In this document: positions 36,609-39,577 of the stretch, piece after piece | Numbering within the stretch: the stretch's first letter is position 1 | How the letters are laid out: each line of letters opens with the position of its first letter | Assembly: GCA_028293545.1 (NCBI GenBank) | Contig: JAQGOP010000018.1 | Span: forward strand, 1-64,000 | Length of the DNA stretch: 64,000 nucleotides | Direction: 5' to 3' | Source: Verrucomicrobiota bacterium | GTDB taxonomy: Bacteria > Verrucomicrobiota > Verrucomicrobiia > Opitutales > Opitutaceae | Program-made: the position numbers and the translations under genes | Notes under the pieces: model-generated | Database searches by the model: none | Seen by the model: only the letters and a program-made list of their open reading frames with translations | What the model was told of the DNA's origin: nothing

Positions 36609-37372
36609 CGACCCTGACCGAAAATTTTTGGAGCACGCTGCCGCTGGGGCGCGACGTGCGCCTGCTCATCCACGACGCCAACGGCCTCGCCGCTTTCGAC
36701 AAACCCGCGGGAGTGCTTTCGCACCCGAACGCCGGCGGCGACGAGCCCCGGTCGCTCCTCACGGTCCGCTACAAGCTGGAAGGCGAATTCTACGAGTGGG
36801 TCGGGGAGAAGGGCTCCCCCCCGCGCCGGCTGTGGCTGTTGAACCGCCTCGATTCGGCGACGTCCGGGGTCATCATCGTCGCTGCCGACGAAACGCTCGC
36901 CACCGAAATTCGCGCGCAGTTCCGCCGCAAGCAGGTCCGCAAGGTTTACCAGACGCTGGTTTTTGGAACGCCCCGCCTGCCGGTGGAAGTATGGCGGGAT
37001 ACGATGTCCGCGGTGAAAAAATCGGCGCAGGTTCGCGCCGTGACTGGCGTGGGACGCATCCCCGCTGTGTGTAACATGAACCTCGTGCGCACGGGCCGCA
37101 GCGAGCCCCGCGTCAGCCTGCTGCGCCTCGAACCGACCACTGGCCGCAGCCACCAGCTGCGCGTGCAATGCTCGAAGCGACATCTCCCGATCGTCGGCGA
37201 CCAGACGTACGGCGATTTCCAGGCCAACCGCGCCTTCGCGAAATTGAAAAAAACCAAGCGCCTCTTCCTGCATTCGCTGACAACCCAGTTCGACTACGAA
37301 TTCAAGGGCCAGCGGCACCATTTCTCCGTCGAGGCGCCGCTGCCCGAGGCGTTTGCCGAGGCGATGGCCTAG
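36605..37372 (+). CDS. RluA-type pseudouridine synthase
   Basis: LLNRLDSATSGVIIVA, GRSHQLRVQCSKRHLPIVGDQTYG; GTG start overlapping the previous stop. Confidence 0.92.
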   Translation: MTTLTENFWSTLPLGRDVRLLIHDANGLAAFDKPAGVLSHPNAGGDEPRSLLTVRYKLEGEFYEWVGEKGSPPRRLWLLNRLDSATSGVIIVAADETLATEIRAQFRRKQVRKVYQTLVFGTPRLPVEVWRDTMSAVKKSAQVRAVTGVGRIPAVCNMNLVRTGRSEPRVSLLRLEPTTGRSHQLRVQCSKRHLPIVGDQTYGDFQANRAFAKLKKTKRLFLHSLTTQFDYEFKGQRHHFSVEAPLPEAFAEAMA

Positions 37373-37432
37373 GGTCACGCCTGCCACGACGGAAGATTGA
37401 CATCGGCGCGCTGCGCCGGCACCCATCCCGTC

Positions 37433-37519
37433 GTGAACAGCAGCGGTTTTTATTTTTTCAGCTTTGCTTTCCGGGGGTATTTTACCCGGAAAAACACTGG
37501 CGGCTGCCGCGAAACCTGA
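37433..37519 (+). promoter_or_regulatory. Putative Phe/Tyr leader peptide VNSSGFYFFSFAFRGYFTRKNTGGCRET*
   Basis: 28-codon ORF with 6 Phe and 2 Tyr codons in a 12-codon stretch, just upstream of a terminator and DAHP synthase. Confidence 0.5.
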
Positions 37520-37542
37520 ATCCCTTTTCCCCTTCGCAAAAC

Positions 37543-37569
37543 AAGCCGCCCAACTAGGGCGGCTTTTTT
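37543..37569 (+). terminator. Intrinsic terminator AAGCCGCCC-AACTA-GGGCGGCTT-T run, candidate attenuator
   Basis: 9-bp perfect stem. GGCGGCT at 37499-37505 could pair with the 5' arm (AGCCGCC) as antiterminator. Confidence 0.8.
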
Positions 37570-37592
37570 ATTATCCAAAATCCACACCCGCC

Positions 37593-38624
37593 ATGATCCT
37601 CCCGAAATCGAATCGCCTCACGCCTGAGCAACTCACCGAGATCACCGCCATCGTCGGCGAGTTCGGCTGCAAGATCCAGCCGATCGTCGGCGCCGTGCGC
37701 ACCATCTACGCCATCGTCGGCGACGAGCGCGACGAGCTCATGATCAACCGGCTTGAGGGCCTGCCGTACGTCGACCGCATCGATCGGATCCAGTCGCCGT
37801 TCAAGCTCATGGACAAACGCTCCGATCTCGCGAGCCATCGCATCAAGTGCGGCGGCGTCACCCTCGGCGAGGAGCTCTTCGTCATAGCGGGCGCCTGCAC
37901 GATCGATCCCAAGAATCCGAATTACTTCTACGAAACCGCGGCCGCGGTGAAAGAAGCCGGCGCCCATGTCTTGCGCGGCGGCGTGTGGAAGCCCCGGACC
38001 AATCCTTACTCGTTCCAAGGCGACGTTAAATCCCTCGATGTCCTGATGGAGGCATCGCGACGCACCGGCCTGCCCGTCGACACCGAGGTCATGGAGGAGG
38101 CGCATATCAAACTCGCCCTCGATGCCGGCGTGCACTCGCTCCAGATCGGCGCCCGCAACGCGCTCAACTATTCGCTGCTCCGCTCCGTCGGACGCGCCAT
38201 CGCCGAGCGCGACACCGTCGTCCTCCTCAAGCGCAGCATCAACATGGGCCCGTTGAGCGAATTCATTACCGCCGCGGAATACATCGCCGCGTTCGGCAAT
38301 CCCAATGTCATCCTGTGCCCGCGCGGCACGACTCCGACCCTCGACGGCTACCGCAATCATCCCGACGAGAGCATCACGCCGCTGCTGAAGGAAAAAACGT
38401 GGGCCCCCGTCGTCGTCGATCCCTCGCACTCGGTCGGCAAGGCGATTTACGTCCCCGCCTGCGCCCTCGCTGCCGTAGCTTACGGAGCCGACGGCCTGTG
38501 CATCGAATCGCACGTGAGTCCCAGCCACGGCATCGGCGACGATCCCAAGCAGGCCGTCACGCCGGATGTCCTCGCAACCACCATCAAGCAGGCAAAACAA
38601 CTCTGGGCCATCCGTCGCGGATAA
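37593..38624 (+). CDS. aroF: 3-deoxy-7-phosphoheptulonate (DAHP) synthase with N-terminal regulatory domain
   Basis: FVIAGACTIDPKN, LRGGVWKPRTNPYSFQG, LCPRGTTPTLDGYRNHPDESI, DPSHSVGKA. Confidence 0.94.
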   Translation: MILPKSNRLTPEQLTEITAIVGEFGCKIQPIVGAVRTIYAIVGDERDELMINRLEGLPYVDRIDRIQSPFKLMDKRSDLASHRIKCGGVTLGEELFVIAGACTIDPKNPNYFYETAAAVKEAGAHVLRGGVWKPRTNPYSFQGDVKSLDVLMEASRRTGLPVDTEVMEEAHIKLALDAGVHSLQIGARNALNYSLLRSVGRAIAERDTVVLLKRSINMGPLSEFITAAEYIAAFGNPNVILCPRGTTPTLDGYRNHPDESITPLLKEKTWAPVVVDPSHSVGKAIYVPACALAAVAYGADGLCIESHVSPSHGIGDDPKQAVTPDVLATTIKQAKQLWAIRRG

Positions 38625-38824: not shown

Positions 38825-39148
38825 ATGAAGCGCAAGATCCCGGAATCAGATATCCCCAAGGGACTTAAACCTTGGATGGTGCAGGAAGCCGCACAAGCCG
38901 CTTATGGAGTCCAAGCGACCGTGAACGTGCGCACCGCGAAGGACCAACTGTCGTCACTGCTCGAACGGGCATCGATGGGCGAAGAGATCGTTATCACCAG
39001 CGATGGAAAACCCAAGGCGATGATCGTCAGGTACCGGCCAGTGATCACCGGCGCACCCGCCCGATCGATGGCAGCGGTGCGGAGCAAGATGGCGATGACG
39101 CCGGATTCGACGTCGACGCTGCGTGCAATGCGGGACAGCGGTTTCTGA
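38825..39148 (+). CDS. Phd/YefM-type antitoxin
   Basis: VNVRTAKDQLSSLLERASMGEEIVITSDGKPKAMIV. Confidence 0.88.
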   Translation: MKRKIPESDIPKGLKPWMVQEAAQAAYGVQATVNVRTAKDQLSSLLERASMGEEIVITSDGKPKAMIVRYRPVITGAPARSMAAVRSKMAMTPDSTSTLRAMRDSGF

Positions 39149-39157
39149 GGTCACACG

Positions 39158-39577
39158 ATGTACCTTGATACATCCACGCTGGTGAAGCGCTACGTCGCCG
39201 AGCCGGATTCGGAGCAGGTCGATGACGTGATCGTCGGCTACACGCTCGTGAGTTCGGAACTGGCCTTGGGTGAACTCTGGTCGGCGCTGCTGGCGAAGGA
39301 GCGCGGGAAATTTATTTCGGCGGACGATCGGACGAATGCGTGGAAAGCATTTCTCGGCGACATCGACGAAGGCGTGCTCCGCTTGATCCCGCTCGATGGC
39401 GTGATGATCCGCGAGGCGACTGAAATGATGTCGCGCGTCCACCCGGAAGTCCCGCTCCGCACCCTCGACGCCATCCACCTGGCGACCTTCGACTCAGTGA
39501 CGACCGGCCCGCTTTTCACCAAGGACAAGCGCATGATCGACGCGGCAAAGCTGCAGGGGTTCGCCACGGTGGAGTAG
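39158..39577 (+). CDS. VapC-type PIN-domain toxin
   Basis: MYLDTSTLVKRY, SELALGELWSAL, LDAIHLAT, FTKDKRMIDAAK. Confidence 0.92.
   Translation: MYLDTSTLVKRYVAEPDSEQVDDVIVGYTLVSSELALGELWSALLAKERGKFISADDRTNAWKAFLGDIDEGVLRLIPLDGVMIREATEMMSRVHPEVPLRTLDAIHLATFDSVTTGPLFTKDKRMIDAAKLQGFATVE

Follow-up and report, generated by a model that had tools for sequence, protein, structure and literature searches.

A putative Phe/Tyr transcription attenuator with a probably leaderless leader peptide upstream of the DAHP synthase gene aroF in Opitutaceae

The aroF Locus

The window analyzed here is a stretch of 64,000 nucleotides (contig JAQGOP010000018.1, positions 1 to 64,000, forward strand) from a Verrucomicrobiota bacterium of the family Opitutaceae. 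In it, an aroF-type DAHP synthase gene follows a pseudouridine synthase gene on the same strand, with 220 bases between the two. The gap contains, in order, a TTGACA hexamer, an ORF of 28 codons, a hairpin within that ORF, the motif GGCGGCT and an intrinsic terminator, after which aroF begins. The features are:

Ends at 37372, + strand: pseudouridine synthase gene (PF00849)
37397..37402, + strand: TTGACA, −35 hexamer of the leader promoter (present in 33 of 33 leaders)
37420..37425, + strand: CACCCA, weak −10-like element at a spacer of 17, placed by analogy
37433..37519, + strand: leader peptide ORF, GTG start, 28 codons, TGA at 37517-37519, probably leaderless (translation, coding signature)
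37448..37483, + strand: control codons 6-17, FYFFSFAFRGYF, six Phe and two Tyr (translation, conserved aromatic columns)
37468..37492, + strand: hairpin within the ORF, TTTCCGGG / CCCGGAAA, candidate pause hairpin (folding, covariation)
37499..37505, + strand: GGCGGCT, 5′ strand of the predicted antiterminator (complementarity, near-invariance in relatives)
37509..37537, + strand: predicted inner helix of the antiterminator, GCGAA at 37509-37513 with TTCGC at 37533-37537 (folding)
37543..37569, + strand: intrinsic terminator, stem 37543-37565, T tract to 37569 (prediction, co-occurrence with the leader)
37593..38624, + strand: aroF-type DAHP synthase gene, 343 aa, ATG at 37593, the putatively regulated gene (Pfam)

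The aroF product matches Pfam DAHP_synth_1 (4.6e-41) and has an N-terminal ferredoxin-like domain (DAHP_snth_FXD, 5.7e-9). Its top NCBIfam matches are 3-deoxy-7-phosphoheptulonate synthases, at scores under the curated cut-offs. Immediately 3′ of aroF, at 38825-39577, lies a pair of genes for a Phd/YefM antitoxin and a PIN-domain toxin (PF02604, PF01850).

The leader ORF translates as VNSSGFYFFSFAFRGYFTRKNTGGCRET. An earlier note on this DNA had proposed an aromatic amino acid attenuator here, and its coordinates and complementarities, checked base by base, are all right. The count of six Phe and two Tyr within 12 codons is exact, a strong terminator does stand just 5′ of aroF (23 bases from the ATG), and GGCGGCT and the AGCCGCC at 37544-37550 are exact reverse complements.

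Distribution of the Leader

Matches to aroF were found in 199 of 200 Opitutaceae genomes, and 110 full-length aroF upstream regions (L001-L110) were examined. They were scanned for TTGAC, a start codon 24-41 nt further on, and five or more aromatic residues in the short ORF that this codon opens. The layout of the window, i.e., TTGACA, start codon, aromatic-rich ORF, GGCGGCT-type segment and terminator, recurred in 33 of the 110. Most of these leaders (26) are of the window type, with 23 to 28 codons and a consensus near VNRFxAYYFSFGFWGYFTRKxxGGCREN. The other seven are shorter, with 18-23 codons (e.g., MSFARAFFAYFWFGYRLAD); the GCGGC strand comes directly after the stop codon in six of them and inside the ORF in L084. 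In L004, L007 and L104 (TGA) and in L110 (TAA), the codon after GGCGGC has turned into a stop, which shortens the peptide and retains the RNA strand GGCGGCT.

A covariance model built from the promoter and ORF was used to search 252 Opitutaceae genomes. It matched 54 of them at E ≤ 0.01 and 50 at E ≤ 2e-6, one match per genome at the latter value. Wherever the position of aroF was listed on the same contig, the matches at E ≤ 2e-6 were just 5′ of the gene and on the same strand; weak matches in two genomes (G121 and G101), and a second one in G189, were away from aroF. Strong matches were confined to Opitutaceae among 388 Verrucomicrobiota genomes. Counting the shorter type of genus g20, which the model missed, the leader is present in at least 12 genera. 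In the window's own genus it is present in nine of 12 genomes and absent in three, which implies that it is dispensable.

The Leader Reading Frame

The earlier note cautioned that the T-rich tract gives Phe codons in the other frames as well. For the window the caution is valid: the first 18 codons hold 8, 2, and 6 Phe/Tyr codons in the three frames, so that the window by itself leaves the question of frame unsettled. Among the 33 leaders, the ORF frame is the richest in Phe/Tyr every time, with a mean of 7.0 per 18 codons vs. 1.2 and 3.1 in the other two. It is also stop-free across the 18 codons in all 33, the other frames being so in only 8 and 20 of the 33.

The manner in which the codons vary points the same way. 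Where codon pairs differ (codons 2-20, in 21 sequences of the window type that are under 90% alike), the ORF frame has a mean BLOSUM62 score of +0.50, compared with −0.30 and −0.38 for the two other frames and a value below zero for the opposite strand. None of 500 column shuffles, which preserve column conservation but not relatedness, matched the ORF-frame value, the top shuffle reaching 0.483. In a set of 23 leaders, 12 have Phe and nine have Tyr at codon 8, codon 16 is Tyr in 18 and Phe in five, and codon 17 is Phe in 18 and Tyr in five, and in several aromatic columns of the alignment T and C are both used as third base. Aromatic identity thus appears to be preserved while the bases vary, with Phe and Tyr interchanging at codons 8, 16, and 17. 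The frame statistics and this interchange across relatives answer the worry about the T-rich tract, and the ORF frame, and only that frame, bears the signature of coding sequence. The earlier note had named a leader frame not conserved in relatives as something that would refute its reading; the frame is conserved, in at least 12 genera.

The Promoter and the Start Codon

Although the search demanded TTGAC, it allowed the start codon anywhere from 24 to 41 nt on; the distance found, counted from TTGACA, is 29-32 nt in 33 of 33 leaders. This includes L081, where an initial start lies at 36 nt and a second one at 31 nt is the conserved one. The −10-like element is weak. Its first two positions are conserved (C in 97% and A in 79%), and a consensus −10 sequence is absent at 37420..37425; promoter prediction of the window did not yield one either. 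Because the constant distance places the start codon where transcription is expected to start, the leader is probably leaderless, with transcription starting at the start codon or 1-2 bases from it. The same position would account for a GTG without a clear Shine-Dalgarno sequence, which the earlier note had counted as a caveat.

The same spacing is found elsewhere in the family. Recurrent genes whose products start with MANKADKW, which we take to be ferredoxin-like, have TTGACA 29-32 nt 5′ of their ATG (e.g., G107:C34:7514-7658 and G052:C1:508220-508364). Leaderless genes may therefore be common in Opitutaceae.

RNA Elements of the Leader

The leader region folds better than its shuffles (z −4.3). 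In the hairpin within the ORF, 87% of cells are paired over 23 sequences and three of the eight pairs have changed on both sides. Two of 500 shuffles equaled its covariation score, and sliding the pairing by +1 scored nearly as high; the compensatory changes thus lend the hairpin moderate support.

The terminator 5′ arm, 37544-37550, doubles as the 3′ strand of the antiterminator. When the stretch from the GGCGGCT strand through this arm is folded, the minimum free energy structure pairs the two in 32 of 33 leaders, typically near −20 kcal/mol, a value to which the inner helix contributes along with the outer pairs. Even on its own, the linker gives a more stable fold than its dinucleotide shuffles in all 33 leaders (mean z −1.77). 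The support for the outer helix comes from invariance and not from covariation, as would be expected of a strand committed to two pairings; GGCGGCT itself is nearly invariant. By folding and distances, a mutually exclusive antiterminator is predicted in the window and in 32 of the 33 leaders. When the nascent RNA is folded, the antiterminator does not form in L029 and L087, and forms weakly in L066, L098, L081, and L100. A consensus from RNAalifold on a MAFFT alignment paired the wrong arms, the terminator loop being misaligned, and was discarded.

Peptide conservation outside the aromatic codons (FxFWGYFTRK..GGCRE) is what one would expect if the nascent peptide sensed a free amino acid or a drug and arrested the ribosome, instead of the ribosome stalling codon by codon. 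The conserved non-aromatic stretches, however, are the RNA pairing strands. At the aromatic positions Phe and Tyr swap freely, and the early stops of L004, L007, L104, and L110 remove the end of the peptide and leave the RNA strand in place. Peptides also differ in the shorter leaders and in other families. We consider arrest by a specific peptide very improbable, and codon-by-codon stalling remains the preferred reading.

The Terminator and Its Company

An intrinsic terminator lies between leader ORF and gene, and leader and terminator keep company: with two short contigs excluded, both were present in 32 upstream regions, the leader only in one, the terminator only in two, and neither in 73. 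The leader without a terminator is L055, whose T tract is interrupted. In L054 (G014), the last 84 bases 5′ of aroF hold a different strong terminator, GCCCCCGC..GCGGGGGC followed by a T tract; it is at a contig end and any leader would fall on the missing side.

These counts bear on the more mundane idea that the terminator merely ends the pseudouridine synthase transcript and that the T-rich tract happens to yield an ORF rich in Phe/Tyr. The pseudouridine synthase gene does end nearby, at 37372 on the same strand, and the tract is T-rich enough to give six Phe/Tyr codons in the third frame of the window. But the 23 nt from the terminator to the aroF ATG leave no space for a promoter, a conserved TTGACA precedes the leader ORF, the terminator is absent from 73 of the 75 upstream regions that have no leader ORF, and the codons of the ORF frame are conserved despite base changes. 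This account is in our judgment even less probable than peptide arrest, and we keep to an attenuator of aroF. Ahead of aroF in 12 or more genera, the reading frame is conserved together with the Phe/Tyr positions, the antiterminator strand, and the terminator, which supports the aromatic attenuation proposed in the earlier note.

Other Families and Other Genes

Aromatic-rich leader ORFs are not peculiar to Opitutaceae. Of 20 regions 5′ of DAHP synthase genes in other Verrucomicrobiota families, three have an unrelated aromatic-rich ORF followed by a terminator: L255 (MMTGTAERFFNFYFYYFAFQKRGSSAAA), L260 (MSRQYYYSEFSFSSRFAVYYYYRKSDRASLCFDPPQTTPAS), and L263 (MHQTLSYASFYFYYGYWWFSSRGMVAHALKG), which come from two families. 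Their ORF frames hold 9, 11, and 10 aromatic residues, respectively, vs. 0-4 in the other frames. This suggests that Phe/Tyr attenuation arose repeatedly in Verrucomicrobiota from unrelated sequences.

Within Opitutaceae, the device seems confined to aroF among aroF, pheA, and trpE. A terminator with a Phe/Tyr or Trp leader was not found within 450 nt upstream of the domain match for pheA (PF00800) or trpE (PF04715) in 12 genomes. Across the window's own genome, the aroF leader was the one match to the pattern TTGACA-N29-31-RTGA that combined a short aromatic ORF and a terminator. A wider pattern, TTGACA-N29-32-RTG-N95-125-TTTTTT, returned aroF leaders and scattered matches from the 252 Opitutaceae genomes, among which a second attenuator was not recognized; its N95-125 gap was slightly too short, and it missed the window's own leader.

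A Model for Attenuation

We consider it very probable that the leader is a ribosome-mediated transcription attenuator that tunes DAHP synthase expression to the availability of charged tRNA-Phe and tRNA-Tyr. We infer the following course of events. Transcription would begin at the GTG or within 1-2 bases of it, and the leader would be translated as a leaderless mRNA. The hairpin within the ORF probably delays RNA polymerase long enough for the ribosome to draw level. When Phe and Tyr are plentiful, the ribosome would reach the stop codon and cover both GGCGGCT and the 5′ half of the inner helix, whereupon the terminator would form and transcription would end 5′ of aroF. When either amino acid is scarce, the ribosome would stall at codons 6-17 and leave GGCGGCT exposed, free to pair with the terminator 5′ arm once that arm is made and so to allow read-through into aroF. 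The role would also explain a 28-codon ORF of a kind that gene finders would pass over.

The distances along the leader suit these positions. With positions numbered from the start codon's first base, the last Phe/Tyr codon begins 18 nt 5′ of the GGCGGCT-type strand in 25 of 33 leaders, both types being represented. Because the window-type leaders share descent, their common spacing amounts to one observation; its recurrence in the shorter type lends further weight. The footprint of a bacterial ribosome is about 30 nt, roughly 15 nt on each side of the P site. A ribosome stalled with the last Phe/Tyr codon in its A site would therefore end just short of the GGCGGCT strand. The stop codon lies 18 or 6 nt past the first base of the strand, or 3 nt ahead of it, and a ribosome there would cover the strand.

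What the leader would do when untranslated is a separate matter. In folds of the ribosome-free nascent RNA, the mean pairing probability of the antiterminator is 0.75; that of GGCGGCT with the leader 5′ end is 0.08. Sequestration of GGCGGCT by the 5′ end as a default state was considered and is not general, L066 and perhaps L100 and L081 being the exceptions. Since another factor could in principle block an antiterminator that folds so readily, a trans-acting protein or a ligand-binding RNA might be thought to make the choice in place of the ribosome, but all Rfam matches to the leader are below gathering score and neither the coding signature nor the Phe/Tyr content would have a role, which makes this the least probable of the alternatives. 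For the ribosome-controlled attenuator, transcription starting at the start codon and an ORF hairpin that leaves the antiterminator untouched would together invert the default: an untranslated leader would read through, and termination would require a finished peptide. The read-through is predicted by thermodynamic folding only. This inverted default, taken together with several independent origins in Verrucomicrobiota, is a tentative proposal that we would place somewhat short of even.

Relation to Known Systems

The attenuation mechanism itself is textbook; what the Opitutaceae leader would add is a new phylum for it. For a long time leader-peptide attenuation was recorded chiefly in Proteobacteria and Actinobacteria; a 2010 survey stated that it had not been shown before outside these groups, and itself added Firmicutes (PMC2965389). 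Our literature search, which did not extend to subscription papers, found no relevant report on leader peptides or attenuation in Verrucomicrobiota. The leader region has no match to any Rfam family at gathering score, only sub-threshold ones, and does not belong to the Phe_leader family RF01859 (22.8 bits vs. a gathering score of 55). New with respect to the earlier note are the probable leaderless start, the compensatory changes in the hairpin, the inner helix of the antiterminator and the 18-nt codon spacing. The result is a well-supported family of putative attenuators, of which 33 were inspected nucleotide by nucleotide, that would govern the entry step of aromatic synthesis.

The nearest functional relative appears to be the aroR-aroF attenuator of Corynebacterium glutamicum, where a leader ORF with Phe and Tyr codons likewise precedes a DAHP synthase gene (Mentz et al., 2013, PMC4046766); the likeness is one of function, and a relation by sequence is not claimed. 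The C. glutamicum peptide has Phe-Tyr-Phe vs. about seven Phe/Tyr codons in 18 here, and the phylum is different. Its read-through rises with Phe shortage, Tyr being reported without effect (Neshat et al., 2014, as summarized in PMC11802643), whereas interchange of Phe and Tyr in the Opitutaceae leader suggests that both are read. The leader peptide of ilvBNC in C. glutamicum is also described as lacking a ribosome binding site (reference cited in PMC4046766).

With the enterobacterial pheA leader and the trp attenuator, the Opitutaceae leader shares a peptide rich in the sensed amino acid and competing antiterminator and terminator. It differs from the former in its target, DAHP synthase and not pheA, and in having no Shine-Dalgarno sequence. 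In contrast to both, its hairpin within the ORF shares no strand with the antiterminator, and the untranslated leader is therefore predicted to read through rather than terminate, unlike the trp leader of E. coli.

The probable leaderless start would have a counterpart in trpL of Sinorhizobium meliloti, a transcription attenuator in which the leader mRNA has the start codon of the peptide as its 5′ end (PMC7298713). That system senses Trp, uses AUG, belongs to another phylum and has a known 5′ end; here the 5′ end is deduced from promoter spacing. Given such a start, coupling between transcription and translation could be tested directly at the very 5′ end.
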